NCBI GenBank assembly: GCA_024636515.1
Contig: JAGXGX010000086.1
Location: 1 to 37,131 of the forward strand
Direction: 5' to 3'
DNA from: Roseovarius sp.
GTDB lineage: Bacteria > Pseudomonadota > Alphaproteobacteria > Rhodobacterales > Rhodobacteraceae
Length of the DNA: 37,131 bases
Part shown: positions 8,285 through 25,686 of the stretch, one piece after another
Layout of the letters: each line of letters starts with the position of its first letter
Numbering within the stretch: position 1 is the stretch's first letter
Notes under the pieces: generated by a model
Told to the model about the DNA's origin: nothing
Databases searched by the model: none
The model's input: only the letters and a program-made list of their open reading frames with translations
Program-made: the position numbers and the translations under genes

Positions 8285-8325
8285 CTTGGCCGGACCCATC
8301 CGCGCCGCCACACCAAGGAGCGATG

Positions 8326-10017: not shown

Positions 10018-10019
10018 GA

Positions 10020-10044
10020 CGCGCGGCTCAAGAGTGGCCGCGCG
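10020..10044 (+). promoter_or_regulatory. stem-loop between the ThDP enzyme gene and tctC
   Basis: CGCGCGGC (10020-10027) pairs perfectly with GCCGCGCG (10037-10044) across a 9-nt loop, directly after the stop of the upstream gene. No T-run follows, so it is more likely an mRNA-processing or partial termination element than a full terminator. Confidence 0.4.
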
Positions 10045-10074
10045 CGACAACCGACAGGGAAAAAGGATAATAAC

Positions 10075-11061: not shown

Positions 11062-11067
11062 CGGCTT

Positions 11068-11088
11068 GGCGGGGTTTATAGCCCCGCC
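11068..11088 (+). promoter_or_regulatory. stem-loop after tctC
   Basis: GGCGGGG (11068-11074) pairs with CCCCGCC (11082-11088) across a 7-nt loop, seven bases past the tctC stop. In other operons, hairpins after binding-protein genes stabilise that part of the mRNA and lower expression of the membrane subunits. The same role is inferred here. Confidence 0.45.
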
Positions 11089-11118
11089 CATCCGCCTCGC
11101 ACAAAGGATCGCCCCCGA

Positions 11119-11628: not shown

Positions 11629-11631
11629 ACC

Positions 11632-13125
11632 ATGCTGGATCTCCTTGGCGGTTTCTCGACGCTTTTTACGTTATGGCCGTTCCTCTATCTGCTCGGCGGC
11701 TTCATGCTGGGCCTTTTCTTTGGCGCTATTCCGGGCCTAACGGCGACGCTGGCTATCGCTCTGTTGCTGCCATTTACCTTCGGGATGGAGGTGACGAACG
11801 CGTTGATCATGGTCATGGGCATCTACATGGCTGGCATTTATGCGGGCTCGATCACCGGCATCACGCTGAACATTCCCGGCGCACCGTCGGGCGCGATTAC
11901 CAGCATCGATGGCCACGCCTTGATGAAGAAGGGGCAAGGCGCGCAGGCGCTGAGCCTTGATGCCTTTGCCTCATCGGTTGGCGGCATGATCGGAGCGCTG
12001 ATTCTGATGCTGCTGGCGCAGCCCATCGGCGCGCTGGCGCTTTATTTCCGCACGCCCGAGAAATTCTCGCTGGTGCTGCTCGCGGTGGTGACAGTGACCA
12101 TCGTATCGCGCGGATCGCTGTGGAAGGCGATCATCGCAATGACGCTGGGCCTGATGATTTCGACCGTAGGGATTGACCCGATGGTGCCCAAAGGGCGCTT
12201 TGATTTCGGCAGCTACCATCTGGTCGAGGGGATTGGATTACTGCCCGCCGTCATCGGCCTGTTCGCCGTTTGTGAACTGCTGGTGCAGGCTACAATCCCG
12301 GCGCGAAACGCGATGGGCGTCGCGGTGGCTGACATGCCGCGGCTGCGGCACCGCGACTTCATCCCCGATTTACATATCGTCCGCGAGATCGGCGCGTGGC
12401 TCTATATCAAAAGCTCGATCATCGGCGTGCTGATTGGCATGTTGCCGGGGGGCGGTGCCTCCATGGCGTCCTTTATCGCCTATGCCGAGGCCAAGCGCAC
12501 GGCCAAGCATCCAAGCGAATTTGGCCAAGGCTCGCATGAGGGGCTGGCCGCATCGGAATCGGCGAACAATGCGATGTGCGGTGGCGCGATCATCCCGCTG
12601 CTGACGCTGGGTATTCCGGGCGACGCGGTGACGGCGATCATCTTCGGCGTGTTCCTGATCCACGGTCTCGTGCCCGGCCCCGGCCTGCTGACGCAGCATA
12701 CGGACGCTATTGCCCCGATGTTTGCCGCACTATTCGTCGCATCGGCCTTCGTCATGATCTCGGTCATTGCGTTCGGCCCATTCTACCTGCGGCTGGCGCG
12801 GATCAATCGCGGCGCGCTTTATGGCTTTATTGGCCTGATCTCGATGGCGGGGGTCTATGCCTCGTCGTTTTCGGGCTTTCAGATGTGGATGGCGCTGGCG
12901 ATCGGTATCTTCGCCTTCGCGCTGCGCCGGTTCGAATATCCGGCGGTGCCTATGTTGATGGGCGTCATCTTGGGGCCATACCTTGAGAAGTTTTTGCGCG
13001 GCTCTATGATCGTGTCGCAGGGCGATCCGCTGATATTTATCACGAGCCCGTTTAGCTTGATGTTTCTAGTTATGACGGCGGTGTTCATCTGGCTGCTGCG
13101 TCTGCGCCCCGGCGTGCGCAGCTAG
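11632..13125 (+). CDS. tctA: tripartite tricarboxylate transporter, large permease subunit TctA
   Basis: This 497-residue inner-membrane protein has about twelve hydrophobic segments. It carries the family's inverted-repeat hallmarks: GAIPGLTATLAIALLLP in the first half and GMLPGGGASMASFIAY in the second. NIPGAPSGAITSIDGHALMKKGQG and the later TLGIPGDAVTAIIFGVF are also typical of TctA. It forms the translocation path for the carboxylate bound by TctC. No strong ribosome-binding site precedes ATG 11632, consistent with re-initiation after tctB. Its stop lies three bases from the stop of the convergent cupin gene, so no separate terminator fits between the two operons. Confidence 0.95.
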   Translation: MLDLLGGFSTLFTLWPFLYLLGGFMLGLFFGAIPGLTATLAIALLLPFTFGMEVTNALIMVMGIYMAGIYAGSITGITLNIPGAPSGAITSIDGHALMKKGQGAQALSLDAFASSVGGMIGALILMLLAQPIGALALYFRTPEKFSLVLLAVVTVTIVSRGSLWKAIIAMTLGLMISTVGIDPMVPKGRFDFGSYHLVEGIGLLPAVIGLFAVCELLVQATIPARNAMGVAVADMPRLRHRDFIPDLHIVREIGAWLYIKSSIIGVLIGMLPGGGASMASFIAYAEAKRTAKHPSEFGQGSHEGLAASESANNAMCGGAIIPLLTLGIPGDAVTAIIFGVFLIHGLVPGPGLLTQHTDAIAPMFAALFVASAFVMISVIAFGPFYLRLARINRGALYGFIGLISMAGVYASSFSGFQMWMALAIGIFAFALRRFEYPAVPMLMGVILGPYLEKFLRGSMIVSQGDPLIFITSPFSLMFLVMTAVFIWLLRLRPGVRS

Positions 13126-13128
13126 GCC

Positions 13129-13482
13129 TCAGGCGAGGATGAAGTACACCTTGCGCACATGCGTCAGGTTTTCCCACGTCCCGCCAAAGCCAGCCGCAAC
13201 GACAAAGGTATCACCGGCACCAAACCGGCGCTGCACGCCCGCGCTGTCGGTCAGGCATACCTCACCCTCAAGGATATGGCACATCTCGTCAAAATCGCAC
13301 TTGCACCGCTCCAGATGCGGCTCCGCCTCCCATATCCCGGCGCTCGCGCCTTTGCCCTCGTTCTGGAAGTGCCGCCAGCAGGTCGCGGGATAGGGCGTGT
13401 CGACGGCGGCAGGATCGTCTGTGACGGCCTCGCGGGCAGGAACAGACATGTCGAACGGGATGACATTTGCGGGGTTGGTCAT
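13129..13482 (-). CDS. cupin protein, DUF861/Cupin_3 type (last gene of amine operon)
   Basis: This 117-residue single-domain cupin has a WEAEPHLERCKCDFDEMCHILEG-like core (here split for brevity), in which DEMCHILEG and the later GAGDTFVVAAG are the two cupin motifs of PF05899. The HxH of metal-binding cupins is reduced, leaving the Glu and His of DEMCH, so metal binding is uncertain. Relatives include EutQ-like and ureidoglycine-aminohydrolase-like cupins and many small proteins found with amine oxidases. It is the third such cupin in this operon and the most divergent. It follows the FAD oxidase by nine bases. The exact role is unknown; a catalytic step on, or sensing of, an unstable intermediate is possible. 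Confidence 0.8.
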   Translation of the reverse strand: MTNPANVIPFDMSVPAREAVTDDPAAVDTPYPATCWRHFQNEGKGASAGIWEAEPHLERCKCDFDEMCHILEGEVCLTDSAGVQRRFGAGDTFVVAAGFGGTWENLTHVRKVYFILA

Positions 13483-13491
13483 GATACTACC

Positions 13492-14871
13492 TTATGAACC
13501 GAAGCCGATGTTGAACCGGTCGAGCGTTTTGAGAAAGAGTGAGCGATGCCCTGTTGCATCCTCGCGTGCAAGATCGCGCTGCGCCCATTTTATACCAAAG
13601 CTGCGCAGCGGCTCGGGTGGGAAGGGCACAGCACTGCTACGCAACATTTTGAGGCGGGTGCGCTCCGTGTCCTTGCCTTCTAGCCGGTCCAGCATCGTCA
13701 ATGCGCCAAAGCGCGTCGCCGCCACGCCCTGACCAGAAAAACCGGCGGCATAGGCCACGCGCCCGCCCATGGCCGTTCCAACAAAGGCGGTCAAGCGCGC
13801 GGACGTGTCAATAATGCCGCCCCAGCGGTGGGTGAATCCGATATCGCCAAGCGCGGGGAAGGCATCGCGAAAATTTGCCTCGATCCGGGTGTAGGTGACA
13901 TCGCGGTGATGCAGTTCCTCGCCCCGTCCGCTGCCATAGTGATAGACGGCGTCATACCCACCCCAAAGGATGCGATTATCCGCCGTTTTGCGGAAATAGT
14001 GAAACTGGTTGCCGCTGTCAGCAATGCCGTAGCGCCCCTGCCAACCGATGGCTTTTAGTTGCGCCCCCGTCAGTGGCTCGCTCATCAAGGTATAGTCAAA
14101 GATCGGAATAATCGATGGGCGCAGCCGCCGCAGCAGCGGCACGGCGGCATTGGTGGCGAGGATCGCCTGCGCGGCGGTGATGGTGCCAGCGGCGGTCATC
14201 AGGCGCACACCGCCCCCGGTGTTCCTGAGGCCCGTAACCTTGGTATCCTCAAATATCTGCACGCCCCGCGCGATCGCCGTCTTGGCCAGCCCATCCACCA
14301 GTTTGGCGGGGTTCACCAACGCATAGTTCGGCTCAAAGAGGCCGGCATGATAGCGCGGCGTATCAAAGCGCGCGTCGAGTGCTGCGCCCTCCAGCAATTC
14401 GGTCTTGATGCCAAAGCGTGCATAGGCCGCGTGCATGTCGCGCAAACCAGCTGCCTGCCACGGCGTGGCGGCGACGTTCAATTTGCCCTCACGCTCGAAC
14501 TCGGCGTCAATGGTGTAGGTGTCCAGATCGGCCTCCAGCCCGTCGAGGTTTTCGCGCCCCAGCCTGACCAGCGCCTCGGCCTCATCGGGCCAGCGCGCGA
14601 CCGCGTTACTTACCCCATGCGAAATGCTGGGCGCGCAAAATCCGCCATTACGCCCGCTGGCGGCGTTGCCCATCTGGCCGCACTCCAGCACCACGATACG
14701 GGCATCCGGCATCCGCTCTCGCGCCTTTAGGGCCGACCAGAGGCCCGAAAAGCCACCCCCGACGATGGCCAGATCGCAGGCGATATCGCCGTCCAGCGGC
14801 GCGGCGGTAACCGGATTGGTGACGGTCTCGCGCCAGTAGGGCGCGGGTTTGGCGGCGGCGTATTTGGTCAT
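13492..14871 (-). CDS. FAD-dependent amine oxidoreductase, PuuB/OrdL-like
   Basis: This 459-residue protein belongs to the DAO family. It has an N-terminal Rossmann motif GGGFSG (38-43), the typical GNAASGRNGGFCAPS stretch near residue 70 and a C-terminal FSGQGVAATRFG. The PYWRETV start and the overall layout resemble gamma-glutamylputrescine oxidase (PuuB) and OrdL-like oxidases, which convert a primary or secondary amine to the aldehyde with release of ammonia or amine. It lies nine bases after the aldehyde dehydrogenase gene in the same operon, so amine oxidation followed by aldehyde oxidation is likely. The enzyme is cytoplasmic, with no signal peptide. The true substrate is unknown; no PuuA ligase is present in the window. 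Confidence 0.88.
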   Translation of the reverse strand: MTKYAAAKPAPYWRETVTNPVTAAPLDGDIACDLAIVGGGFSGLWSALKARERMPDARIVVLECGQMGNAASGRNGGFCAPSISHGVSNAVARWPDEAEALVRLGRENLDGLEADLDTYTIDAEFEREGKLNVAATPWQAAGLRDMHAAYARFGIKTELLEGAALDARFDTPRYHAGLFEPNYALVNPAKLVDGLAKTAIARGVQIFEDTKVTGLRNTGGGVRLMTAAGTITAAQAILATNAAVPLLRRLRPSIIPIFDYTLMSEPLTGAQLKAIGWQGRYGIADSGNQFHYFRKTADNRILWGGYDAVYHYGSGRGEELHHRDVTYTRIEANFRDAFPALGDIGFTHRWGGIIDTSARLTAFVGTAMGGRVAYAAGFSGQGVAATRFGALTMLDRLEGKDTERTRLKMLRSSAVPFPPEPLRSFGIKWAQRDLAREDATGHRSLFLKTLDRFNIGFGS

Positions 14872-14880
14872 GGGATCAGC

Positions 14881-16386
14881 CTATACATGCTTGCGGCCGC
14901 CTTCCTCAAGGAACCAGTCGTCGTCGTAGGGATACCACCAGTCGTGGCGCTGTGGCTTGTGATCCATGATGACCATTTTAGTGCGGCGGAACGTGTCGAG
15001 GCCCATGCGCCCCAGCTCGCGCCCGATGCCGGAGTTTTTCCAGCCGCCGAAAGGAAGCGCGTCATTGTCGATCATAGGATTGTTGATCCAGACCATCCCG
15101 GCCTCCAATCGCTCGTACGCTTCATGCGCCTCATTCAGATCGGTGGTAAACATCGACGCACCAAGCCCGAACTCGCTGTCATTGGCCATGGTGATAGCTG
15201 TGTCGAAGTCAGGAACGCGGACAATGGCGGCGATGGGGCCAAACACCTCCTCGTTCAGGATCGCCATTTCTGGTGTGCAGTTCGTCAGGATCGTAGGGGC
15301 GTAGAACCAGCCAGTCTCAAGCCCCTCGGGGATGCGCCCGCCGCATTCGACTACTGCGCCTTGCGCGACGGCGTCATCCACCAGCCGCGCCACCTTGTCG
15401 CGGGCTGCCTCACTGACCAATGGGCCGATCTCGGACTTTTGCAGGCCATTGCCGACGCGCAGGCGCTGCGTCTCGGTCACGAATGCGGCGACAAATTCGT
15501 CATGCACTGCGTCCACGACATACATTCGCTCGGTCGAGGTGCAGACTTGGCCGCTCATGTGGAATGCACCGGTAACGGCCCCGGCTGCTGCGATGGCGAT
15601 GGGGGCATGGGCAGTGATTATCATCGGGTCCGATCCGCCCGCCTCTATCACCGCGGGTTTCAGGCGCCGTGCGGCGGCCTCGGCCACAGCGCGGCCCGCC
15701 TTGACCGATCCGGTAAACGCGACGGCGTGCGTTTTGGGGCTGTCGACCAGCGCGCGGCCCACATCCACGCCGCCGGGCAGGCAGGCGACGAGGCCTTCGG
15801 GCAGGCCTGAGAACACCTTCATGAATTCCAGCGTCGACAGGGTCGTTGCCTCAGCAGGCTTGATGATCGCGCCATTGCCTGCGGCGAGTGACGCGGCGAC
15901 TGTCCAACACATCAGCAGGATAGGGAAGTTGAAGGGCATGATATGCACCGACACGCCCAAAGGCTCGTACCGGGCGAATTGCAGTGATCCCATCTGCGTG
16001 GTGCCCGCCACTTTGCCCGCCTCGTCGCGGGCCATTTCGGCATAGTAGCGGAAAATCGGCGCGCAGTTGGCGACTTCGCCGATGGCTTCGGGGTAGGGCT
16101 TGCCCATCTCGCGGCTCATCAGGATTGCGCAGTCTGTCATGTCATGCGCCTCAATCGCGCTTGCCAGTTTGTGCAAGATCGCGGCGCGGGTTTTGGCGTC
16201 GGTCTGCGCCCACATTTTCTGCGCGGCAGTGACGGAGGCAAGGGCGGTCGCGATCTCACTTTGCGTGACCTCTGCGCGCTGGGCGACGACCTCTAGCGTG
16301 GCAGGATCAATCACATCGCGCGGTGCGCCTTGGCTGGCGTGAAAGCCGGGGGCGACATAATAGGCGGGTGCAAGATTGTCGGACAT
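14881..16386 (-). CDS. NAD(P)-dependent aldehyde dehydrogenase
   Basis: This 501-residue ALDH-superfamily enzyme has all catalytic residues in place: Asn153 in MPFNFP, Glu248 in VIEAGGSDP and the nucleophile Cys282 in SGQVCTSTERMYV. The FTGSVKAGRAVA nucleotide-binding loop and the late NEEVFGPI are also present. It resembles succinate-semialdehyde dehydrogenases of the GabD/Sad type and PuuC-like enzymes that oxidise omega-amino or conjugated aldehydes. Its ATG overlaps the stop of the upstream kinase gene as TAATG (16386), which indicates coupled translation. With the PuuB-like oxidase downstream it would turn an amine into the corresponding acid. Confidence 0.93.
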   Translation of the reverse strand: MSDNLAPAYYVAPGFHASQGAPRDVIDPATLEVVAQRAEVTQSEIATALASVTAAQKMWAQTDAKTRAAILHKLASAIEAHDMTDCAILMSREMGKPYPEAIGEVANCAPIFRYYAEMARDEAGKVAGTTQMGSLQFARYEPLGVSVHIMPFNFPILLMCWTVAASLAAGNGAIIKPAEATTLSTLEFMKVFSGLPEGLVACLPGGVDVGRALVDSPKTHAVAFTGSVKAGRAVAEAAARRLKPAVIEAGGSDPMIITAHAPIAIAAAGAVTGAFHMSGQVCTSTERMYVVDAVHDEFVAAFVTETQRLRVGNGLQKSEIGPLVSEAARDKVARLVDDAVAQGAVVECGGRIPEGLETGWFYAPTILTNCTPEMAILNEEVFGPIAAIVRVPDFDTAITMANDSEFGLGASMFTTDLNEAHEAYERLEAGMVWINNPMIDNDALPFGGWKNSGIGRELGRMGLDTFRRTKMVIMDHKPQRHDWWYPYDDDWFLEEGGRKHV

Positions 16387-17423
16387 TATACTGCCCTTTC
16401 AGTGTGTTGAGTGGGGGTGATTCGAGAAGCGTCGGCCTGCCAACCCGGCAGGTGTGCCTCCAGCAGCGCTGCGATACTGCTTAGCTGCGCGGCCTCTAGG
16501 GCCGTGTGCAATTGCTGCGCGACGCGGGGCATCCATTTGAGGTAGTTCGGCTTGCCACTTAGGCGGTCCAACCGGACAAAGACACCTAGGATGCGCGCGT
16601 GTCGCTGCGCAGCGAGAATGTGATAGCGCTGGCGAATATCCGCAGCATTTCCCAAAATAGTGGGCGCATTTTCGATGTACCGCGCCAGCATCTCGTCCTC
16701 CAGACCCGGCGCCAGATCGCGGCGCGCGTCTTGCAAGAGTGACATAAGGTCATACTCGCAAGGGCCGATGACTGCGTCCTGAAAATCTAACAGACCACAG
16801 CGGGCGACGCCCATCCGCGCGGGTAGCAGCATCAGGTTATCGATATGGAAATCGCGCATCACCAGCGTGTCATGGCGTACTGCAATCGGGTCCAACGCGT
16901 CATGCCAACGGACGCGCCAATCTCGCGCGAAATCGTCGCTTAGGCCCGGCGCGATCGCGGGTGCAAACCATTCGGCAAAGATCGCCAGCTCATTCAGGTG
17001 GGTGTCCAGATCATAGAGCGGCTGATCCACCTCAGCGCTACGGGGATCGTGATGCAGGTGCAGCAGCGCGTCGACAGCGAGGCAGTAAAGCGCGCGCTCA
17101 TCCTCGCCTGTCCTTAGGCATTGCGCATAGGTTGCATCGCCCAGGTCCTCGATCAGGGCCAGTCCATTTGCCGGATCTTGTGCCATGACGCGGGGGGCCG
17201 ACAATCCAAGCGCGTTCAGATGCGCCGACAGACGCAAGTAGGCGGCATACCCGACGGGATCGGTGGGATCCTCCATCAGGATCAGGCCGCGCCCCTCCAG
17301 CCTGTGATACTGCCGGGGGGATGCGTCTGCCGTGAAGGGCGTCAGGATTGCATCATCATGACCCTCTGCCGCCAAAAAACCGGCGGCAGGGATGCTGAGT
17401 GTGCTGGCAGGCGCTGCGATCAT
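16386..17423 (-). CDS. APH-fold kinase, AmgK-like (sugar kinase candidate)
   Basis: This 345-residue aminoglycoside-phosphotransferase-fold kinase closely resembles AmgK, the anomeric N-acetylmuramate/N-acetylglucosamine kinase of cell-wall recycling. Visible features are ALIEDLGDATYAQCL (86-103), the Brenner-type catalytic stretch MRDFHIDNLMLL with Asp191 and Asn196, and the metal-binding DFQD (213-216) in LLDFQDAVIGPCEYDL. The gene is not next to MurU or tsaE; it lies inside an amine-catabolism operon, joined by an ATGA overlap to the cupin upstream and a TAATG overlap to the ALDH gene downstream. A role in phosphorylating a sugar or a sugar conjugate handled by the operon's glycosyltransferase is inferred. 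The C-terminal tail (about 20 residues) is divergent. Confidence 0.8.
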   Translation of the reverse strand: MIAAPASTLSIPAAGFLAAEGHDDAILTPFTADASPRQYHRLEGRGLILMEDPTDPVGYAAYLRLSAHLNALGLSAPRVMAQDPANGLALIEDLGDATYAQCLRTGEDERALYCLAVDALLHLHHDPRSAEVDQPLYDLDTHLNELAIFAEWFAPAIAPGLSDDFARDWRVRWHDALDPIAVRHDTLVMRDFHIDNLMLLPARMGVARCGLLDFQDAVIGPCEYDLMSLLQDARRDLAPGLEDEMLARYIENAPTILGNAADIRQRYHILAAQRHARILGVFVRLDRLSGKPNYLKWMPRVAQQLHTALEAAQLSSIAALLEAHLPGWQADASRITPTQHTERAV

Positions 17424-17764
17424 CGGATCATATAGACCTTCTTGATGGTCTCATGGACGGTGCAGACGCCCTTCCAATCCTTGGGAAAGAACGCCGCTGT
17501 GTCGGGCGTGATTTCAATCACGTCGCCGGATTCGTGCACATAGGTGCAGCGCCCCTCAAGGAAATGACAGAACTCGTCCGATGTCACGTGGCAGTCCCAT
17601 TTGCCGGGCGTACAAATCCAAAGGCCGCATTCGCTCTGCCCATCTGGTCCTTTGTGCAGGACCTTGCCCGAGACGTGGCTTTCCCCTTCTATCATCGTGG
17701 GGATGATGCCCCAATCGACGGTGTCGGTGATCTCCAGCGGGTTTTGCATCACAGGTGCTTTCAT
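17420..17764 (-). CDS. cupin protein, DUF861/Cupin_3 type (paralogue B)
   Basis: This 114-residue cupin is clearly paralogous to the one encoded just upstream. Both have WG..P.MI.G.SH.(S/T)G, then LHKGP and G.W(V/I)CTPGKW, then DEFCHF..GR.TY, and end with the same (K/R)(K/N).YM. pattern. It has the PF05899 core with DEFCHFLEG and no full metal-binding HxH. Start ATG 17764 has AGGAG at suitable distance. The stop overlaps the kinase ATG as ATGA. The function is unknown; retention of two copies suggests a heterodimer or two related substrates. Confidence 0.8.
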   Translation of the reverse strand: MKAPVMQNPLEITDTVDWGIIPTMIEGESHVSGKVLHKGPDGQSECGLWICTPGKWDCHVTSDEFCHFLEGRCTYVHESGDVIEITPDTAAFFPKDWKGVCTVHETIKKVYMIR

Positions 17765-17776
17765 CGGTTTTCTCCT

Positions 17777-18139
17777 TCAAACAAGCATGTAAATGTTGCG
17801 TAGCGTTTCGGTAATCTCGGCGGTGCCTTCCCAGCCTGCAGGGAACATGACGCAGGTGCCGGGACCTGCCTCGATCACCTCATCGCTGCCATCGCGGCGG
17901 TAGGTAACGCGGCCCGCTACGAAATGGCAGAACTCATCACGCGGCACGGAAATGCGCCATTTGCCGGGGGTGCAGACCCAGACGCCCGTTTCGGGCGAGT
18001 TGCCGGGTCCCTTGTGCAAGAGCCGCCCGGTCGAATGCGACTGGCCCGCGATCATATCCGGCTGAGGGCCCCAATCGGCCAGATCGTCATATGTTGTCGC
18101 ATCGTGGATATGGGGTGCGGATGATTTGAGATCGGTCAT
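17777..18139 (-). CDS. cupin protein, DUF861/Cupin_3 type (paralogue A)
   Basis: This 120-residue cupin starts MTDLKSSAP. The ATG at 18139 overlaps the glycosyltransferase stop as TAATG; a start 24 bases upstream would lie inside the glycosyltransferase gene and is less likely. Core segments are LLHKGPGNSPETGVWVCTPGKW, DEFCHFVAGRVTY and AGPGTCVMFPAGWEG (quoted in pieces). The paralogue B gene follows after 12 bases. The tight coupling to the glycosyltransferase suggests it acts on, stabilises or senses that enzyme's product, but no reaction can be read from the sequence. Confidence 0.8.
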   Translation of the reverse strand: MTDLKSSAPHIHDATTYDDLADWGPQPDMIAGQSHSTGRLLHKGPGNSPETGVWVCTPGKWRISVPRDEFCHFVAGRVTYRRDGSDEVIEAGPGTCVMFPAGWEGTAEITETLRNIYMLV

Positions 18140-19422
18140 TATTGCGCCTCTGCTAGATCGCACAGCAGCTTTGCCGCCTTTTCCTGACCGTTCTGCGACT
18201 GCATATGCGCACTGGTCTTGGCCAGTCGCGCCGCCATGTCCTCATCCGTCAGGCAGGCCTCAATCTTGGCCGTCAGATCCGCATCCGTCCACTCGTAGCG
18301 GTCCGAGCGGAAGCCGTGACCCGTCTCCTGCACGCGCATCGCGTTGTCGTGGCCGTCCCAAACGTAGGACATGATGATCGCCGGCTTGCCGAAGTAGAGA
18401 CATTCGGTGAACGAGTTGTTCCCGCCGTGGTGGATGACCGCGTCGACCTGCGGGATGACCGAGGGCTGGGGAAACCAGCTGCCGATGATGACATTGTCAG
18501 GAATATCCGAATACTCGGCCTCGTAATCGCCCACGTTGACCAGCGCGCGGTAGCGACTGCCACCGATCAGTTTGATGATCCGTTTGAGCAGGTCTGTATC
18601 GCCAGCACCCAGTGAGCCGAACGAGACATAGAGCAGGGGGCCGTCGTTGTTCTTCTTGAACGTCGGAACCTCATACGGCTTGTCCTGCCGCACACAGCCT
18701 TCGAGATATTGGAAGCGCTTCGGGTCCAGCGGCTGGGCGCGGTTGTATTTCATCTGCTCAGGGTAGAGCAGCAGGTTCAGATACGGCGACGGCTCAAAAA
18801 ATTCGCCAATGGGGTAAGGGTCTTCGCCGGTGGTTTTTAGGAAAGCGTTGAAATCGTCGTGAATCGGCTTGATGACCTCATTGAATTTCTTGCGAAAGGC
18901 CGCATGACCGGCGGTGTCGTCCACCGACATGCCCGACAGGTGCGGCGGGATATCCGCATCCTCAATCTCGTTTTCCGAGCATGAAATGACGCGCACCCAC
19001 GGCACGCCGAACTGCTTGATCGCGGGGAACAGGATCACATTATCGACGGCGATCACATCCGGCTTAATCTCGGCCAGAATGCCCGGCAGGTCCTTTTCGG
19101 CCCATTTTGCGCTGTCGACGATCGCCTCCCAACATTCCTTGACGTAGTTGTCGATCTGGTCGATCGGCGCTTTGCGAAAATTGGGGATGTGTCCGTTGAT
19201 GAAATCCTCCCAGAACTTGGCCATCTTCTCGGGGGGCATCGGCTCGCTCAGGTTCACGGGATACGCCTCAAAGCCGTAGTCCTTGTAGATATCGACAAAG
19301 CCGGGATCGGACAGGAACACCACCTTGTGGCCCTTCCGCTCGACCGCCTGTGCGATACCAACTGAATTGAGGGCAGGGCCAAAGGCGGCCTCAGGAAAGA
19401 AGGCGAAGGTTTTCTGGGTCAT
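18139..19422 (-). CDS. UGT-like GT-B glycosyltransferase (paralogue 1)
   Basis: This 427-residue cytoplasmic protein has the GT-B fold of the UGT/MGT superfamily. The C-terminal nucleotide-sugar site is well conserved: SWFPQPSV (315-322), HHGGNNSF (331-338), then ECLYFGKPAI and WDGHDNA (355-361). N-terminally, FFPEAAFGPALNSVGIAQA replaces the usual GHxxP region, so the position normally held by the catalytic His is Pro16. The partner Asp is plausibly Asp127 in PDVIAVDN. Donor and acceptor are unknown. A gene 5 kb away (24415-25686) encodes a paralogue with the same changes. It is the fifth gene of the amine-importer operon, 56 bp after the ATPase gene, with AAGGAG before ATG 19422. An acceptor delivered by the importer is the simplest inference. 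Confidence 0.85.
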   Translation of the reverse strand: MTQKTFAFFPEAAFGPALNSVGIAQAVERKGHKVVFLSDPGFVDIYKDYGFEAYPVNLSEPMPPEKMAKFWEDFINGHIPNFRKAPIDQIDNYVKECWEAIVDSAKWAEKDLPGILAEIKPDVIAVDNVILFPAIKQFGVPWVRVISCSENEIEDADIPPHLSGMSVDDTAGHAAFRKKFNEVIKPIHDDFNAFLKTTGEDPYPIGEFFEPSPYLNLLLYPEQMKYNRAQPLDPKRFQYLEGCVRQDKPYEVPTFKKNNDGPLLYVSFGSLGAGDTDLLKRIIKLIGGSRYRALVNVGDYEAEYSDIPDNVIIGSWFPQPSVIPQVDAVIHHGGNNSFTECLYFGKPAIIMSYVWDGHDNAMRVQETGHGFRSDRYEWTDADLTAKIEACLTDEDMAARLAKTSAHMQSQNGQEKAAKLLCDLAEAQ

Positions 19423-19478
19423 TGGGTGGTCTCCTTGTCGGTTTGTTCTGGTGCCGCTTAAACGCGGTCTATGGTGTG

Positions 19479-20534
19479 TCAGAGGGGGAATGCGCGTGTG
19501 TCGCGCGCAGCCCAGTAAACGGTAATCTCGTCGCCTTCGGCCACTGGGCGCGCCTCGGCATCGCTTGCGGTCAGGCGCATCAGAATAGGCTCGGGCGCGG
19601 CAGGGGTTTTCAAATGCACCTGCAGATCCAGCCCGTGATACGCAGTCGCGACGACCTTGCCGGTGATGCTGTTCTCGGCCTTGATGGTCAGGCTCAGACG
19701 TTCGGGGCGCACGGCCGCGACGCCTTGTTGGCCCGCGCTTAGCGGCGTTCCGGCTGCAATGACGCTGCCATCCTCAGCAATCAATTTGCCGTCCACCTCG
19801 CGTACAGGAAAGAAGTTCATCACGCCGATGAAATCCGCGGCAAAGCGGCTGCCGGGATGCTCGTAAATCTCGCGCGGGGTGCCTGATTGCAGCAACTTGC
19901 CATCCTTCAGGATCGCGACGCGGTCAGCCATGACCAGCGCCTCTTCCTGATCGTGCGTAACAATGATGAAGGTGATGCCGAACTCATGCTGAATGCGCTT
20001 TAGCTCCAGCTGCATTTCGCCGCGCAGCTTTTTGTCCAGTGCGCCCAGTGGCTCATCCAATAGCAAGAGGCGCGGGCGCTTGACCAACGCACGGGCAAGG
20101 GCGACGCGCTGGCGCTGGCCGCCCGATAGCTGGTCGGGCTTTCGTTTGGCCAAGTGACCCAGCTGGATCACGTCGAGAATCTCGTCCACGCGCGATTTGA
20201 TCTGCGCCTTTGGCAGCTTTTCCATCTCGAGCCCGTAGGCGATGTTCTGGGCCACGCTCATATGCGGGAAAAGCGCATAGGACTGAAACATCAGGTTGAC
20301 CGGTCGATGGTTGGGCGGGATGCGGCTCACGTCCTTGCCATCCAGAATGATTTGCCCAGCATCAGGTATCTCAAAGCCGGCCAGCATCCGCAGTAGCGTC
20401 GTCTTGCCGCTGCCCGACGCGCCGAGGAGGGCAAAAAACTCGTTCTCATAGATCTCGAGGTCGATCCCGTCGATCGCGCGGACCGCGCCAAAGTGCTTCT
20501 CTACGCCCTTTATGGATAGCAAGCTTTCGGTCAT
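19479..20534 (-). CDS. polyamine-type ABC importer ATPase, PotA-like
   Basis: This 351-residue ATPase powers import through the two permeases encoded upstream. It has Walker A GASGSGKTT (38-46), the signature LSGGQRQRVALARA, Walker B LLLLDEPLGALD and the switch His in IIVTHDQEEA. A C-terminal TOBE-like domain begins near residue 240 (FIGVMNFFPVREVDG), as in PotA/PotG. The ATG overlaps the permease stop by four bases (ATGA, 20531-20534). Ligand class follows from the PotD-like binding protein in the same operon; the exact amine is not determined. Confidence 0.93.
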   Translation of the reverse strand: MTESLLSIKGVEKHFGAVRAIDGIDLEIYENEFFALLGASGSGKTTLLRMLAGFEIPDAGQIILDGKDVSRIPPNHRPVNLMFQSYALFPHMSVAQNIAYGLEMEKLPKAQIKSRVDEILDVIQLGHLAKRKPDQLSGGQRQRVALARALVKRPRLLLLDEPLGALDKKLRGEMQLELKRIQHEFGITFIIVTHDQEEALVMADRVAILKDGKLLQSGTPREIYEHPGSRFAADFIGVMNFFPVREVDGKLIAEDGSVIAAGTPLSAGQQGVAAVRPERLSLTIKAENSITGKVVATAYHGLDLQVHLKTPAAPEPILMRLTASDAEARPVAEGDEITVYWAARDTRAFPL

Positions 20535-21322
20535 TGGCCCGGTAGCCCTCCACGGTTCAGGCGCTGCGACAGGGCCAGGATGATAACCGACACGGTCATC
20601 ACAATAGCGGCGAGCGCGTTGATTTCAGGGGTGACGCCGAAACGGATCATGGCAAAGATCTGCATCGGCAATGTGATAGAGTCGCGGCCCGCGCCTGCGG
20701 TAAAGAACGCGATGATGAATTCGTCGAGCGACAGCGTGAACGCCAGCAACGCGCCCGCGATCACGGCGGGCAGCATGACGGGCAGTACCACGCGCCAAAG
20801 GGTGACGACCATCGGCGCGCCCAGATCGGTAGACGCCTCGACGATGGACCAGTCGAACGTTTTCAGCCGCGCGCGTACGACCGAGCAGACAAAGGCGAGG
20901 TTAAAGACAACGTGGCTGACGATCACGGTGTGCAGGCCCATCGTGAAGTTGAGCAAGGAGAAAAAGCTAAGCAGCGCAATGGCCAGCACGATGTCTGGGA
21001 TGATCATGGGGGCAAAGATTATCGTCTCGAGGAACCGTCCCTTGCGGCGGCGGATTTCGACACCCACGGCAAGAAGTGTACCAAGGATCGTTGCGAGGAT
21101 GGTGGACACTATGGCAACGATCAGCGTGTTGAGGGCTGCGCCCATGATGTCGCCGTTGCGGAACAGCTCGCCGTACCATTTGACCGAAAATCCTGTCCAT
21201 ACGGTTGGCAAGCCGCCCTCGTTGAACGACAGCGCAAAAAGGACGGAGATCGGGATGTAGAGGAACGCGAAAACTGCCGAGAGGATCATCAGCATTAGTT
21301 TCGGGTTGGCGGTGCCGCGCAT
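20531..21322 (-). CDS. polyamine-type ABC importer permease, PotC-like
   Basis: This 263-residue inner-membrane permease has six hydrophobic segments. The cytoplasmic coupling (EAA) loop is EASTDLGAPMVVTLWRVVLP, followed by LPAVIAGALLAFTLSLDEFIIAFF, the usual PotC/YdcV ending. It pairs with the PotB-like permease, whose stop lies three bases upstream. Its own stop overlaps the ATPase start. The early LSFNEGGLPTVWTGFSVKWY is a periplasmic stretch typical of the family. Confidence 0.93.
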   Translation of the reverse strand: MRGTANPKLMLMILSAVFAFLYIPISVLFALSFNEGGLPTVWTGFSVKWYGELFRNGDIMGAALNTLIVAIVSTILATILGTLLAVGVEIRRRKGRFLETIIFAPMIIPDIVLAIALLSFFSLLNFTMGLHTVIVSHVVFNLAFVCSVVRARLKTFDWSIVEASTDLGAPMVVTLWRVVLPVMLPAVIAGALLAFTLSLDEFIIAFFTAGAGRDSITLPMQIFAMIRFGVTPEINALAAIVMTVSVIILALSQRLNRGGLPGQ

Positions 21323-21325
21323 GAC

Positions 21326-22177
21326 CTAATCCTCCCGCCGAGCGCCAGAGGCACGCTCGGTCGCGAAGGTCTGAAGGGTCAGCAGGCCCATCATGATCGC
21401 GATCAGGAACATCGACAATGCGGCGCCAAAGGGCCAGTCATTCGCCGTAAGGAACTGCGCATAAACAAGGTTGCCGATCATCTGGAATTGCCCACCACCC
21501 AGAAGGGCCGGCGTCACGAAATTGCCGATACTGAGGACAAAAACAAAGACAAAGCCCGTCGCGATCCCCGGCACCGTCATCGGCAGGATCACCCGCCGGA
21601 ATGTGGTCCAGCCACCGCCACCCAGATCGCGCGACGCCTCCGCGATTTCGGGGTTGAGGCGCGACAGGGGCGCATAACAGGCCAGAATGACGAAAGGCAG
21701 GTAGTTATAGACCAGCCCGATCACCACGGCGGTTTCGGTATAGAGCATCTTGGGCAATTCGCCGTCATAGCCCAGCCAAGCAGCGATGCCGGCGACCAGC
21801 CCTTCGCGATTCAGCATCACGATCCAGGCGTAGGTGCGCACGAGATAATTTGACCAAAACGGCAGCACTGCAAAAAAGAGCAGCGTTGCCTGACGGCGAG
21901 ATGGCGCGGCGGCGATGGCATAGGCGGCAGCGTAGCCGATCACCACGGCGATGGTCGCTGACAGCCCCGCGATCCACGCCGATTTTAGGAAAATCCCCGC
22001 ATAGAGAGGGTCGAACACCAGCGCGATGTTTTCCATCGTAAAGGTGTATTCGATGCCGCCATAGATACCGCGCCGGAAAAACGCCAGCGCAAGGATCAGC
22101 AGGCACGGCACCACCATAAAGGCAGTGAGCCACACCAGCGCCGGCGTCATCAGGTATAGCGGTTTGCGGTCGGTCAT
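21326..22177 (-). CDS. polyamine-type ABC importer permease, PotB-like
   Basis: This 283-residue inner-membrane permease starts MTDRKPLYLMTPALVW. An upstream in-frame start at 22303 would overlap the binding-protein gene, so ATG 22177 was chosen. Six hydrophobic segments are visible. The EAA coupling loop reads EASRDLGGGGWTTFRRVILP, and the last segments carry PGIATGFVFVFVLSIGNFVTPALLGG, typical of PotB/YdcU. It forms the translocation pathway with the PotC-like subunit. Confidence 0.92.
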   Translation of the reverse strand: MTDRKPLYLMTPALVWLTAFMVVPCLLILALAFFRRGIYGGIEYTFTMENIALVFDPLYAGIFLKSAWIAGLSATIAVVIGYAAAYAIAAAPSRRQATLLFFAVLPFWSNYLVRTYAWIVMLNREGLVAGIAAWLGYDGELPKMLYTETAVVIGLVYNYLPFVILACYAPLSRLNPEIAEASRDLGGGGWTTFRRVILPMTVPGIATGFVFVFVLSIGNFVTPALLGGGQFQMIGNLVYAQFLTANDWPFGAALSMFLIAIMMGLLTLQTFATERASGARRED

Positions 22178-22197
22178 CTGCTCGCTTTGGTCAGGTT

Positions 22198-22223
22198 GAG
22201 GGAAGCGCGGTCGCGCCTCCCTC
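22198..22223 (-). promoter_or_regulatory. stem-loop after the PotD-like gene
   Basis: An 11-position stem with one A/C mismatch (arms beginning GAGGGA and ending TCCCTC, inner GCGC/GCGC) closes a 4-nt loop, 21 bases past the binding-protein stop. It lacks a U-tract and sits between the binding-protein and permease genes, which suits a role in raising binding-protein mRNA over the rest of the operon. Confidence 0.45.
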
Positions 22224-22244
22224 GGGGCCTTATAAGGTGGTGGA

Positions 22245-23294
22245 TCAGTTGGCTTTGATCTCGGACACGGTGCGCGAATAGGCGCGCTGGGCCTCGCCCA
22301 CATCGCGAAGTTGCTCGTATTTCAGCAGTTGATCGGGAGTGATGCCCATATTCGGAAACTGCGTAACGAACTCTTCGGACAGCGCCTCCATCGCCGGCTT
22401 GTTGGGCACCTTGTAGAGGATATTCTCGGCGGCCCAGCCGTGGTTTGCGGGGTCGAGGATAAAGTCGACGAAGGCATAGGCGGCCTCCTTGTGCTCGGAA
22501 TTCTTGAGGATCACCATGGTGTCGACCCAGAGGTCCGAACCCTCGCTGGGGATGATGTATTTGATGTCAGCATTTTCCGCGATGCCGTAGTTGCACCAGC
22601 CATCCCACGCCTGCACAAGTTCGGCCTCGCCCGAAACCAATTTGGCGTAAAAGGTCGTGTCGTCATAGGCCAGCAACGTGCCTTTGGTTTCGATCAGTTG
22701 GTCGCGGACGGTGGCCAATTCATCCTCGTCGGTGGTGTTGACCGAATAGCCGTTTGCCAGCATCGCGGCGCCCAGCAACCAGCGGTCGGTTGCCAGCATT
22801 GTGGTCTTGCCGCTCAGCGCGTCTGTTGGTTTCAGCAGGTCATTCCAGCTATCCGGTGTGCCCTCAACCAGATCCGAGCGATAGCAGAGGCCCGTCGTGC
22901 CCCACGCATAGGGAAGCGAGAATGTGTTGCCTTCGTCATGCGAAAGCTGCGTCGCCTGCTCGTAGAGGTTCTCGATGTTGGGGATCTTGTCGTGGTCCAG
23001 CTCCTCAGCCAGCCCCAGATTATGTAGCACTTCAGCGAAGGGGGAGGAAACGAAGACGACGTCATAGCCCTTGCCCTTGGACGCAATCAGCTTACCCATG
23101 ATCTCCTCGTTGGTGCCGTGCAGCACTAGCTCGGCCTCGTTGCCAGTGGCCTCGTTAAAAGCGTCGATTGCCCCGGGCGCCATGTAGCCGTCCCAGTTGG
23201 ACACGACCAGTTTTTCGGCCCCCGCGACGCTGGCCGACAGGGCCAGCCCTGTGCCCATCGCTGCGGCGCCAATGATCTTGAGTTTACTAAACAT
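22245..23294 (-). CDS. polyamine-type periplasmic binding protein, PotD/PotF-like
   Basis: This 349-residue secreted protein starts at ATG 23294 behind a strong GGAGGAATAGG; a start 72 bases upstream is less likely. The signal peptide (FSKLK, hydrophobic core, SVAGA) is cleaved near residue 26, and VVSNWDGYMAPGAIDAF then opens the mature domain. The pattern LWVDTMVILKNSEHKEAAYAF matches the PotD/PotF segment whose Trp-x-Asp contacts an amine, so a di- or polyamine-like ligand is likely. It is the first gene of the eleven-gene operon, with a TATAAT hexamer upstream (23365-23370, minus strand). Confidence 0.92.
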   Translation of the reverse strand: MFSKLKIIGAAAMGTGLALSASVAGAEKLVVSNWDGYMAPGAIDAFNEATGNEAELVLHGTNEEIMGKLIASKGKGYDVVFVSSPFAEVLHNLGLAEELDHDKIPNIENLYEQATQLSHDEGNTFSLPYAWGTTGLCYRSDLVEGTPDSWNDLLKPTDALSGKTTMLATDRWLLGAAMLANGYSVNTTDEDELATVRDQLIETKGTLLAYDDTTFYAKLVSGEAELVQAWDGWCNYGIAENADIKYIIPSEGSDLWVDTMVILKNSEHKEAAYAFVDFILDPANHGWAAENILYKVPNKPAMEALSEEFVTQFPNMGITPDQLLKYEQLRDVGEAQRAYSRTVSEIKAN

Positions 23295-23364
23295 CCTATT
23301 CCTCCGTTTTTGCTGTCGGTGCGCGGGCATCATGGCCGCCGCGTCATTTTGGTTATTTGTGGAC

Positions 23365-23423
23365 ATTATAGACCACTTTCCGCAACAGTATTAAGATTAG
23401 TAAAAATACGTCAAACTGTATTA
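23365..23423. promoter_or_regulatory. divergent promoter and repeats between the importer operon and its GntR regulator
   Basis: On the minus strand a consensus TATAAT (23370 down to 23365) lies about 70 bases before the binding-protein start. Two near-identical decamers, AACAGTATTA (23384-23393) and AACTGTATTA (23414-23423), are spaced exactly 30 bp apart, about three helical turns. AATAC (23405-23409) and GTATT (23418-23422) also form an inverted repeat of 18 bp overall. These fit operator half-sites for the adjacent GntR regulator; binding is inferred. Confidence 0.45.
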
Positions 23424-23485
23424 GGTGTTCTTTTGTGCCTTTGGCTTGAAATATTGGATGCTCATTCGGCAAAAGGAGTGTGGCC

Positions 23486-24418
23486 GTGACTGAGGCGCGC
23501 CGAAACGTCAGGCAAAACCACCTTGCGCTGGCGCAGAAAATCCTCAGCGTGGCGATGGCGCGCGGTCTGAAATCTGGCGATCATCTGGCCGAACAAACGT
23601 TTTCTGAGGCGTGCGGCGTGTCGCGTACGCCTATTCGATCAGCATTTAAGGTGCTGGAAGAGCGTGATATTCTACAGTGGCGACAGGAGGAGGGGTATTT
23701 TCTAAGACTTGGCACGGCCGATGAGATCGCATCGGTTATCCGCGCGCTGGAGGATGCTGAAAATTCTGTCGCAGACCGGATCTTGTCGGACCGGGCCGAG
23801 CGGCGCATCAGCGACGTGCAATCGGTCAGTGCTCTGACACGGCGCTATAAGGTGCCACGTGCGTCAGTCCTAAACGCACTAAAGATACTGGCAAAAGACG
23901 GCATTGTGCGCCAGTTACCGGGCCGCGCATGGGCGTTTCAGCCTATGGTCGATTCCCCCGCAGGACTGGAGGACAGCTTCGACTTTCGCCTGATTATGGA
24001 GCCGCAGGCGATCATCGCCCCCGAATTTGCGCTAGATTCCAAGCGTGCCGGACTGCTGCGCGAGCAGATGAACAGCACGCTGAGCAAATTGGATGGGCGG
24101 CTGACCCCGGCCATATTCCGGCGCATCGACATCGAGTTTCACACCCTGATCGCTGAATGTTCGGGCAATCGTTTTCTGCGCGGCACGCTGGCTGCGCATC
24201 ATCGCCTACGCAAGGCATCACAGAAAAGCGCGGCGATCCCGGATTTTCGCCTGAAACAGGCCATGCTGGAGCATCTGGAGATCCTCGACAGTCTGGAGCG
24301 AAACCAGTTTCAACTGGCGGCGGACCAGATCATCGTGCATCTGCGCCGCTCTCGCATCCGCAAACCTCAGGCCGCAAATCGCGGTATTCCCCCGCTGGGA
24401 CAAGGATCGCGCACATGA
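23486..24418 (+). CDS. GntR-family regulator with two winged helices and an FCD domain
   Basis: This 310-residue regulator starts at GTG 23486, seven bases after AGGAG; the GTG at 23480 is only one base away and less likely. A first winged helix (about 10-76) has the usual GVSRTPIRSAFKVLEERDIL. A second (about 95-153) has YKVPRASVLNALKILAKDGIV followed by a wing-like RQLPGRAWAF, so the protein carries two GntR-like DNA-binding modules. An FCD-like helical domain follows (about 165-290), with Asp/His candidates in IDIEFHTLI, EHLEIL and VHLRRS. It is divergent from the importer operon and overlaps the second glycosyltransferase gene (ATGA), so it probably controls both. A second wHTH is unusual, since FCD regulators normally have one. 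Confidence 0.85.
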   Translation: MTEARRNVRQNHLALAQKILSVAMARGLKSGDHLAEQTFSEACGVSRTPIRSAFKVLEERDILQWRQEEGYFLRLGTADEIASVIRALEDAENSVADRILSDRAERRISDVQSVSALTRRYKVPRASVLNALKILAKDGIVRQLPGRAWAFQPMVDSPAGLEDSFDFRLIMEPQAIIAPEFALDSKRAGLLREQMNSTLSKLDGRLTPAIFRRIDIEFHTLIAECSGNRFLRGTLAAHHRLRKASQKSAAIPDFRLKQAMLEHLEILDSLERNQFQLAADQIIVHLRRSRIRKPQAANRGIPPLGQGSRT

Positions 24419-25686
24419 ATCGTCCGCCCGAAATCGCGTTCTTTCCCGAGGCTAGCTTTGGCGCTGCGCTGAATTGCGTCGGCATCGCGCAGGCATTGCA
24501 GCGGCAGGGGGCCAACCCGGTGTTCATCTGTCATGCGGGATTTACCGGCGTTTTTGCCGAATATGGTTTCAAGGAGTATCACCTGCCCGATCATCCCGGC
24601 AGCAGCGCCGAGGCGATTGCCGACTATTGGCAGGATTTTATCAACACCCATCTGCCGCATTTTGACCTAAGCCCGCTGGCTCAGCTCGACACTTATGTCG
24701 GCCCCACATGGCGCGCCATTGTCGAGACTGCTATCGCCGCCGAGGATGATCTGGCACGATTGCTGGCCCAGATTCGGCCCGATGCCATCGTGCTGGACAA
24801 CGTCATCATGTTTCCCGCTATTGCTAACGCAGGGTGCCCATGGGTGCGCATCGTGTCCTGCGCCGAGACGGAAATACCCGATGCCGCCGTGCCGCCCTAT
24901 CTGTCTGGTCTTGCGCCTGGCGAGGATACCGGCGCATTTGACGCGGCCTATGCGGCTGCCACCCGCGATGTGCACCGCCAATATAATGCCTTTCGCAAGC
25001 GGCATGGATTGCATGCCCTGCCGCCCGGTATTTTCCTTGAGCCGTCGGAGGACCTGAACCTGCTGCTGGCCCCGCAGGCCGTAAGGTATGAGCGTGCAGA
25101 GCCGCTGGACCCGGAGCGCTTCGTCTTTTTGGAAGGGTGCGTGCGGCACGAGAACGACTATGAGTTGCCGCGCTTTGCCGTTGAGGGCGGTCCGCTCGTC
25201 TATGTCGGGTTCGGCTCCCTTGGGGCCGTCGATACTGATTTAATCAAGCGGATGCTGGCCGTGTTCCAGACCATTCCCGCGCGGTTTCTGGTAAATGTCG
25301 GCGGGCTGATCGAGGCATACGACTCCGTGCCCGACAACGTGCATCTGGCCAGTTGGTTTCCCCAACCTTCGGTAATTGAGCAGGCGGCGCTGGTCATTCA
25401 TCACGGCGGTAACAACACCTTTTGCGAGGCGCTTTATCATGGGGTGCCGTCGCTGGTGATGCCGTATTGCTGGGATGGTCACGATAATGCGCAGCGCGCA
25501 GAGGGTGCCGGCGTGGGCCGTTCTATCAACCGCGCGGGGTGGAGCGACGCATCCCTGCGCGCCGCGATCGTAGACGTGCTGGAGGATGCGTCGATGCGCC
25601 GCCGTCTGGCGGAAGTGGCGCGCGGCATGCAGGCCGATCCCGGCACGTCCCGCGCGGCGAAGGGCATTTTGGACCTGCTAGATTAG
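24415..25686 (+). CDS. UGT-like GT-B glycosyltransferase (paralogue 2)
   Basis: This 423-residue paralogue of the 18139-19422 glycosyltransferase starts at ATG 24415, four bases inside the regulator gene. The two proteins match along their full length: FFPEASFGAALNCVGIAQAL, CPWVRIVSCAETEI, LDPERFVFLEGCVRHE, SWFPQPSVIEQ, HHGGNNTF and WDGHDNAQR. The position of the usual N-terminal catalytic His is Ala17. The donor-site motifs are intact. Its coupling to the regulator, and not to the main operon, could let its level differ from that of paralogue 1. Substrates are unknown; overlapping or sequential glycosylation of the same imported amine is possible. Confidence 0.85.
   Translation: MNRPPEIAFFPEASFGAALNCVGIAQALQRQGANPVFICHAGFTGVFAEYGFKEYHLPDHPGSSAEAIADYWQDFINTHLPHFDLSPLAQLDTYVGPTWRAIVETAIAAEDDLARLLAQIRPDAIVLDNVIMFPAIANAGCPWVRIVSCAETEIPDAAVPPYLSGLAPGEDTGAFDAAYAAATRDVHRQYNAFRKRHGLHALPPGIFLEPSEDLNLLLAPQAVRYERAEPLDPERFVFLEGCVRHENDYELPRFAVEGGPLVYVGFGSLGAVDTDLIKRMLAVFQTIPARFLVNVGGLIEAYDSVPDNVHLASWFPQPSVIEQAALVIHHGGNNTFCEALYHGVPSLVMPYCWDGHDNAQRAEGAGVGRSINRAGWSDASLRAAIVDVLEDASMRRRLAEVARGMQADPGTSRAAKGILDLLD

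Follow-up and report, generated by a model that had tools for sequence, protein, structure and literature searches.

How would a bacterium use two glycosyltransferases and a sugar kinase in an operon otherwise set up to import and oxidise an amine? The question is raised by positions 13129-25686 of a Roseovarius sp. contig of 37,131 bases (G000:C108; the whole contig is called the window, and it belongs to an incomplete genome of 2.68 Mb, 86.6% complete). On the minus strand, genes for a polyamine-type importer (PotD, PotB, PotC, PotA), a glycosyltransferase (GT1), two cupins (cupinA, cupinB), an AmgK-like kinase (APH), an aldehyde dehydrogenase (ALDH), a flavin adenine dinucleotide (FAD) oxidase (FADox) and a third cupin (cupinC) follow each other in this order, and a GntR-type regulator and a second glycosyltransferase (GT2) are transcribed divergently. 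The reading favoured here, at a probability of about 0.42, is that of an amine-catabolic operon built on transient N-glycosylation, in which the resulting secondary amine is cleaved and the sugar is recycled to a uridine diphosphate (UDP)-sugar. A fuller version, in which the sugar is a catalytic carrier put on by a transferase without active-site His, cleavage yields an aldehyde and an aminosugar, cupins release the ammonia, and the UDP-sugar cycle operates in both domains and is partly plasmid-borne, is more tentative and, taken whole, rather doubtful.

The proposed route would begin with uptake by PotDBCA of a cationic amine, probably neither plain putrescine nor spermidine. GT1, perhaps with GT2, would transfer the sugar of a UDP-sugar, most likely UDP-N-acetylglucosamine, to the amine nitrogen, giving a glycosylamine, which is a secondary amine. 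An oxidase (of the DAO family here, saccharopine-dehydrogenase-like (SacDH) in some loci) would cut the C-N bond on the substrate side to yield an aldehyde, and ALDH, judged by its family, would turn the aldehyde into an acid. The leftover 1-aminosugar may lose ammonia spontaneously or through the cupins, thereby freeing the sugar; this is the weakest step, and the part given to the cupins presupposes a similarity to ureidoglycine aminohydrolase that we assume. The AmgK-like kinase would phosphorylate the freed sugar at C1, and a GlmU-type enzyme, linked to the operon in 12 of the 80 relatives described below and here presumably the genome's own GlmU, would remake the UDP-sugar. The cycle would thus be closed by a kinase-uridylyltransferase pair in bacteria and by a kinase-mutase pair in haloarchaea.

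Named genomes were scanned with GT1, which confirmed 428 relatives; the best 80 were kept as related loci, and all counts out of 80 refer to these. As the loci were found through GT1, its own count is 80 by design; several loci are cut by contig ends, and presence of a gene means a tblastn match anywhere in the locus at identity thresholds set by the analyst. The features of the cluster were the following.

13129-13482, minus strand: cupinC, EutQ-like cupin (Cupin_3; PF05899, 67.3 bits), in 14/80 loci
13492-14871, minus strand: FADox, DAO-family FAD amine oxidase/dehydrogenase (PF01266, 191 bits), in 28/80
14881-16386, minus strand: ALDH, NAD(P)-dependent aldehyde dehydrogenase (PF00171, 488 bits), in 74/80
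16386-17423, minus strand: APH, AmgK-like sugar kinase of APH fold (PF01636, 77 bits), in 32/80
17420-17764, minus strand: cupinB, EutQ-like, most conserved of the cupins (PF05899, 63 bits), in 78/80
17777-18139, minus strand: cupinA, EutQ-like (PF05899, 57 bits), in 69/80
18139-19422, minus strand: GT1, UDP-glycosyltransferase (UGT)-like transferase of GT-B type (PF06722/PF00201)
19479-20534, minus strand: PotA-like ATP-binding cassette ATPase, open reading frame (ORF) named by eye, conserved neighbour, in 76/80
20531-21322, minus strand: PotC-like permease, ORF named by eye, conserved neighbour
21326-22177 (ORF open to 22303), minus strand: PotB-like permease, named by eye, conserved neighbour
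22245-23294, minus strand: PotD-like solute-binding protein with altered ligand pocket (PF13416, 94.5 bits; SBP_bac_8/PotD-like), in 72/80
23365-23394, minus strand: weak promoter-like site upstream of potD (10/12 consensus matches)
23480-24418, plus strand: GntR/FadR-type regulator (GntR and FCD domains), in 71/80
24415-25686 (ORF readable from 24157), plus strand: GT2, paralogue of GT1 (PF06722, 75 bits), in 71/80

The core of the cluster is importer-GT1-cupin-ALDH plus GntR-GT2, and given its conservation in the 80 loci the gene layout is not due to chance. The oxidase and the kinase are accessory, as are ALDH2 (23 loci), a GS-like ligase (19), FAD2 (18) and a stand-alone GlmU-N (12); the rarest were the SacDH-like gene (6), an aldose epimerase (3) and FAD3 (1). 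The first-pass annotation had likened the cluster to the Puu pathway of putrescine breakdown and proposed a search for co-occurrence of transferases, cupins, kinase, ALDH and oxidase; transferase, cupin and ALDH are core, and the accessory status of oxidase and kinase makes the Puu comparison weak. Transferases absent from most otherwise conserved clusters had been named as speaking against the proposal; in these loci, chosen through GT1, GT2 was retained in 71/80. Carriers among the best 80 of 428 include Roseobacters, Halomonas, Aidingimonas, Marinomonas, Ancylobacter, Defluviimonas, Mesorhizobium and others, and the cluster recurs in Alphaproteobacteria and Gammaproteobacteria. In three overlapping samples, each including the source genome, GT1 was present in 9 of 248 genomes of the family (E <= 1e-30), 13 of 385 of the class and 8 of 398 of the phylum (E <= 1e-40). 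The order PotDBCA-GT1-cupin-ALDH was preserved in 8 of 8 other family genomes, six of which had GntR-GT2, two APH and two FADox (in one case split in two frames). Among 12 further class members a cupin adjoined the transferase in 8 of 10 regions examined, and three genomes (6-7 Mb) from another family, outside the class of the source, carried the same cluster, APH included.

The minus-strand genes are closely packed, the gaps from PotD to cupinC being 67, 3, -4, 56, -1, 12, -4, -1, 9 and 9 bases, and on the plus strand GT2 starts inside the GntR stop at an ATGA overlap (24415-24418). The cupinA ORF is readable from 18163, orthologues begin at 18139, and the start overlaps the GT1 stop; the PotD start codon (complement of CAT at 23292-23294) adjoins a purine-rich, ribosome-site-like stretch. 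The promoter consensus scan gave two sites against 0.4 expected by chance, and a scan of the intergenic stretch (23280-23490) for repeats of at least 12 bases gave none. GntR probably controls both transcription units. ORFs, family matches and gaps bear out the gene content, coupling and divergent GntR-GT2 pair as originally described; the regulator, described as having tandem winged helix-turn-helix domains, has its GntR and FCD domains, the second winged helix being only weakly seen (TrmB, 20.0 bits, below the cut-off of 25.6). All three cupins exceed the Cupin_3 gathering score (57-67 bits against a cut-off of 23.5), and no complete two-His cupin metal motif was seen by eye in their sequences.

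Sugar recycling in bacteria is suggested by the kinase and its partners. The kinase scored 228 bits to the AmgK model NF045698 (cut-off 500), and the D, H and N of its D-x-H-x-x-N stretch, whose roles in kinases we take as given, were kept in all 38 aligned kinases; a second AmgK-like gene of the source genome, 41% identical, has as its neighbour a nucleotidyltransferase judged by eye to be MurU-like. The stand-alone GlmU-N uridylyltransferase (about 230-250 codons, matching the N-terminal half of GlmU; family scan done on two of the 12 loci) has the orientation of the operon in 12/12 cases, with ALDH or ALDH2 on one side and, 23-107 bases after it, FADox on the other. This spacing leaves no room for an acetyltransferase domain, and the input of GlmU-N should therefore be an already acetylated sugar-1-phosphate. 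The 12 aligned proteins keep LAAG, the R of GxRM, HKVLH, Q-x-x-Q, GT and LYGDVPL, and also RIVE, CNSG and an NS near the end, among which are residues we presume to be catalytic or sugar-binding. GlmU-N and APH occurred together in 12 loci, APH alone in 20, GlmU-N alone in 0 and neither in 48 (Fisher p 3.7e-6, uncorrected for kinship), and the aldose-1-epimerase-like gene was accompanied by APH in all three loci (the one scanned matched PF01263). On a quick GT1 tree, covering 79 of 95 distinct rows (those extending 6 kb or more downstream, after removal of three identical rows), the minimum numbers of changes were 8 for GlmU-N, 8 for APH, 7 for FADox, 5 for SacDH and 3 for GS. The GlmU match of the source genome is in a 463-codon frame outside the operon.

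A plasmid search with GT1 returned 15 records, including Natrialba magadii and Natronorubrum aibiense at 58-59% identity, and these two haloarchaeal records form the archaeal sample. On both plasmids, genes for a FAD oxidase, an IclR regulator, a glycosyltransferase, a cupin, an ALDH, a ROK kinase and a GlmM-like mutase are adjacent; the cluster genes are 74-89% identical between the two genera, and the flanking gene order differs. Upstream in Natrialba are GS-like (about 7 kb from the transferase), FAD oxidase, amidotransferase and class-III aminotransferase genes, and downstream in Natronorubrum are an aminotransferase and an importer annotated as of the spermidine/putrescine type. ROK and mutase would, with other enzymes, follow the bacterial principle of turning a free sugar into a sugar-1-phosphate. 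Of the independent evidence for sugar recycling this set, from two records, is the strongest. Along with the co-occurrence of APH with GlmU-N and epimerase, it strengthens the sugar-recovery half of the first-pass annotation.

The two glycosyltransferases are paralogues, as had been proposed (50% identical), and both match the UDPGT/EryCIII-C families. The AlphaFold2 (AF2) model of GT1 (pLDDT 92.9) has a GT-B fold, with a TM score of 0.91 (query) to spider-mite UGT203A2 at 28% identity (matched structures 7mco/7lvy), 0.60-0.73 to the macrolide transferases 2iyf/2iya and 0.71-0.72 to CalG1. According to passages of PMC9704763, the mite acquired bacterial UGTs. In an alignment of 174 GT1 and GT2 sequences, the position of the catalytic His, which aligns with the His of UGT203A2, holds Pro in 99, Ala in 64, Ser in 10 and a gap in 1 (Pro in GT1, Ala or Ser in GT2), and the PSPG Gln position after the Asp holds Gly in 174/174; both archaeal transferases, by eye, have the same Pro and Gly. 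The UDP-binding residues W316, H332, N335, N336, S337, E340 and D356 were kept in 170-174 of 174, the W...PQ...HHGG-NN-S...E...D motif being what we take to bind UDP. In the acceptor domain E150, E152 and D127 are invariant, E11 is present in 173 and D155 in 172; in UGT203A2 the residues at 11, 150, 152 and 155 are Met, Pro, Leu and Gly, and those at 12 and 127 are Asp. From conservation, the invariant acids could bind an amine acceptor. A transferase lacking the His would be compatible with such an acceptor because an amine should need no base to act as nucleophile, and without the PSPG Gln there may be space for an N-acetyl group. The cluster transferases have the GT-B fold and UDP-binding C-terminal domain in common with spider-mite UGT202/UGT203 (PDB 6pnt, 7lvy) and MGT/OleD, but differ in lacking the active-site His and Gln, in their invariant acceptor-domain acids and in their catabolic neighbourhood. 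Macrolide inactivation was considered and dropped, as TIGR01426 and NF033129 gave 65-125 bits against cut-offs of 260 and 700.

The importer was compared through PotD (72 sequences, that of the source included, in E. coli PotD numbering). W34, Y37, S83, W229, Y293 and D257 were kept in 72/72 and W255 in 71, and five changes were present in 72/72: E36 to G, Y85 to P, D168 to T, E171 to W, and Q327 to L or M. We take W34, Y37, W229, W255 and D257 to be polyamine-binding residues, D168, E171 and Q327 to bind the second amine, and E36 to belong to the ligand pocket; on these residues a diamine pocket is unlikely.

For the oxidation step, FADox belongs to the DAO family; its earlier label 'PuuB-like' is loose, since the protein scores under all the NCBIfam cut-offs listed, the highest score being 221 bits to TIGR03329 (aminophosphonate oxidoreductase), which requires 633. 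FADox and the SacDH-like gene were found together in 0/80 loci, and a SacDH-like gene also follows ALDH on a Pararhizobium gei plasmid. Both families contain secondary-amine enzymes, and in the N-methylglutamate and saccharopine pathways a carrier makes a primary amine secondary, after which a sarcosine-oxidase-like or saccharopine-dehydrogenase enzyme cleaves it; the carrier is glutamate or 2-oxoglutarate there, and would be a sugar here. The missing glycosidase had been named as the weakest point of the proposal. It is eased because aliphatic glycosylamines hydrolyse without an enzyme, though there is still no glycosidase among the ORFs.

Several observations weigh against transient N-glycosylation. 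The loss of the catalytic His could mean that transferase activity is lost, and new acids in the PotD pocket, D35 (in 69), D169, D211 and D230, could bind a second amine or other second cation. The nearest folds to the FADox model (AF2, pLDDT 85) are L-amino acid deaminase, glycine oxidase and sarcosine oxidases; the first two act on primary amines, and the modelled fold therefore does not favour a secondary-amine step. Neither FADox, SacDH nor GS is present in 27/80 loci, which would need genes elsewhere, and only 26/80 hold cupinB, APH, ALDH and an oxidase or SacDH, with GlmU-N in 12. The source operon has neither a uridylyltransferase nor an epimerase. Sister-pair sign tests were not significant (median p 0.5 for GlmU/APH, 0.25 for APH/FADox), and the GT1 tree was poorly resolved, with 17 of 76 inner branches starred. 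The haloarchaeal ROK gene is on the strand opposite ALDH and mutase, which makes it a neighbour rather than an operon member; its product is above the Pfam ROK cut-off and below every NCBIfam one (glucokinase model best), and against the archaeal GlmM model the mutases scored 288 and 292 bits, short of its cut-off of 439. Lastly, the source genome has gene sets of GS-amidotransferase-GS-DAO oxidase (C150) and GS-DAO oxidase-PotD-like-PotA-like (C208), so that glutamylation is probably not missing, and in 18/80 loci GT2 is followed, after 13-94 bases and in the same orientation, by a GS-like gene.

These GS-like ligases also bear on the claim that glycosyltransferases stand in for gamma-glutamylation. 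No PuuA-type ligase or PuuD-type amidotransferase was found among the cluster ORFs at 13129-25686, in agreement with the first-pass annotation; class-I amidotransferases are encoded elsewhere in the source genome. GS-like ligases were present in 19/80 loci (18 titled Mesorhizobium, 1 Hyphomicrobiales) as well as in Natrialba; an FAD oxidase mostly follows the GT2-linked gene, and in L128 the GS-like gene follows ALDH. One outcome that had been set out as speaking against the proposal, a PuuA-like ligase co-varying with the operon, is thereby seen in mild form. Given the GS-like ligases in related loci and the Puu-like sets elsewhere in the genome, the transferases are not a simple replacement of glutamylation; this half of the first-pass annotation is weakened, and the idea that they simply replace PuuA was dropped. 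The absence of PuuA as evidence was likewise dropped, NF045547 having matched in 14/14 control genomes, none above cut-off, and thus being non-deciding. Mutual exclusion of GS with APH and with FADox was also set aside as a functional signal: GS changes only 3 times on the tree, and the exclusion therefore traces to one or two lineages.

The best surviving alternative, itself unlikely, is the sugar shield of the first-pass annotation, in which a sugar would cap one end of a diamine while FADox and ALDH oxidise the other, with the sugar coming off afterwards in a Puu-like manner. The joint presence of a PotDBCA-type importer, FADox, ALDH and sugar-salvage genes fits it, and cryptic glycosylation is known as a protecting group in biosynthesis, according to passages of PMC13184244. 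Against this stand a PotD without D168, E171, E36 and Q327 (by the roles we assume for them), the replacement of FADox by SacDH in some loci, the lack of a glycosidase among the ORFs and the Puu-like sets elsewhere in the genome. Improbable, too, is that the transferases turn an amine, aldehyde or alcohol into a stable glycoside for storage or export, in detoxification or solute synthesis, with kinase and uridylyltransferase supplying only the donor. Among solved structures GT1 comes nearest to the UGTs of spider mites, whose family has been ascribed a putative role in detoxification; many carriers are marine or halophilic by name. However, importer and ALDH belong to the core, a kinase for free sugars points to salvage and not to de novo supply, and Mesorhizobium species carry the cluster too.

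Less likely still is an imported sugar-amine conjugate, cut by oxidase and ALDH, with the kinase salvaging the sugar and the transferases trimming or running in reverse to UDP-sugar: sugar kinase, GlmU-N and epimerase near an importer, and the presumed reversibility of such transferases, would suit it, but reversal yields UDP-sugar directly and leaves the kinase superfluous, and PotD-like proteins have small cations as ligands. That the GT-like proteins are inactive as transferases, serving as UDP-sugar-sensing or scaffold partners of the cupins, is about as unlikely despite the loss of catalytic His and PSPG Gln across the family and the overlap of GT2 with the regulator gene, as the acceptor-domain acids are invariant, not fold residues alone, and GT1 is better conserved than the importer in distant loci (77% against 56-66% identity in L021), though not in the nearest (L049: GT1 91%, PotB 94%, PotC 96%).

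Variants of the cluster were seen in several genomes. The closest GT1 among the loci listed was that of an uncultured Roseovarius (91% identity). In L017, which lacks APH, the FADox gene (3211-4577) is broken into two frames; GT1, cupins and ALDH each match in one piece, and its GT1 is identical to that of the Ruegeria locus L051. In L090 (Defluviimonas), L099 (Mesorhizobium) and some other loci, cupinA and cupinB are separated by a third EutQ-like cupin. L044 and L046, from two genomes of family f81, have two transferase copies with a cupin next to them, and the adjoining genes resemble, by eye, trimethylamine dehydrogenase or GcvT; from this context the GT-cupin pair may serve other amines too. 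On a Pseudomonas frederiksbergensis plasmid, L163 (10001-10998) has a GT-like match in three pieces that lies within a type VI secretion region. Among three actinobacterial regions with homologues (35-37% identical), the one annotated showed no cupin or ALDH beside the gene, in an incomplete gene table. Elsewhere in the window, an MttB-like trimethylamine methyltransferase gene (2518-4056, plus strand; TIGR02369, 351 bits, below the 525-bit cut-off) precedes ORFs that by eye resemble a transporter and a glyoxalase; a gamma-glutamyltransferase-like gene (5831-7495, plus strand; 314 bits against a cut-off of 358) is separated by 5.6 kb from the amine cluster at its low end; and a thiamine-diphosphate-dependent acetolactate-synthase-like enzyme followed by three ORFs of TctCBA transporter type by eye (8251-13125, plus strand) is convergent with the operon.

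Among known systems, cell-wall salvage by AmgK-MurU uses an anomeric kinase and then a uridylyltransferase to remake a UDP-amino sugar; the cluster kinase is a separate paralogue in an amine operon, and it has GlmU-N for a partner in those loci that encode one. The Puu pathway (PuuA-PuuB-PuuC-PuuD) and GlnA4 ethanolamine glutamylation, in the passages of PMC9397018 on glutamylation pathways, also conjugate the amine, oxidise it (flavoenzyme or dehydrogenase plus ALDH) and release the handle, and those passages contain no word beginning 'glycos'; here the handle would be a sugar, the cluster is without PuuA and PuuD, and separate GS-oxidase sets are in the genome. Cryptic glycosylation is described, in passages of PMC13184244, for nicotine, steroidal glycoalkaloid and anisomycin biosynthesis, the sugar in the nicotine route being added and later removed, with a hydrolase taking part, whereas the present case would be breakdown with sugar recycling. 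No paper on such a cluster, or on catabolic cryptic glycosylation, was found in the literature listings consulted, which cover open-licence papers. If transient N-glycosylation is correct, sugar nucleotides would join glutamate and 2-oxoglutarate as handles for amine consumption, in a catabolic counterpart to the biosynthetic cryptic glycosylations. EutQ-like cupins would gain a testable role, the transferases would offer chemistry a set of candidates for glycosylating amines, and an unnamed cluster widespread in marine and soil bacteria would be assigned to organic nitrogen cycling.

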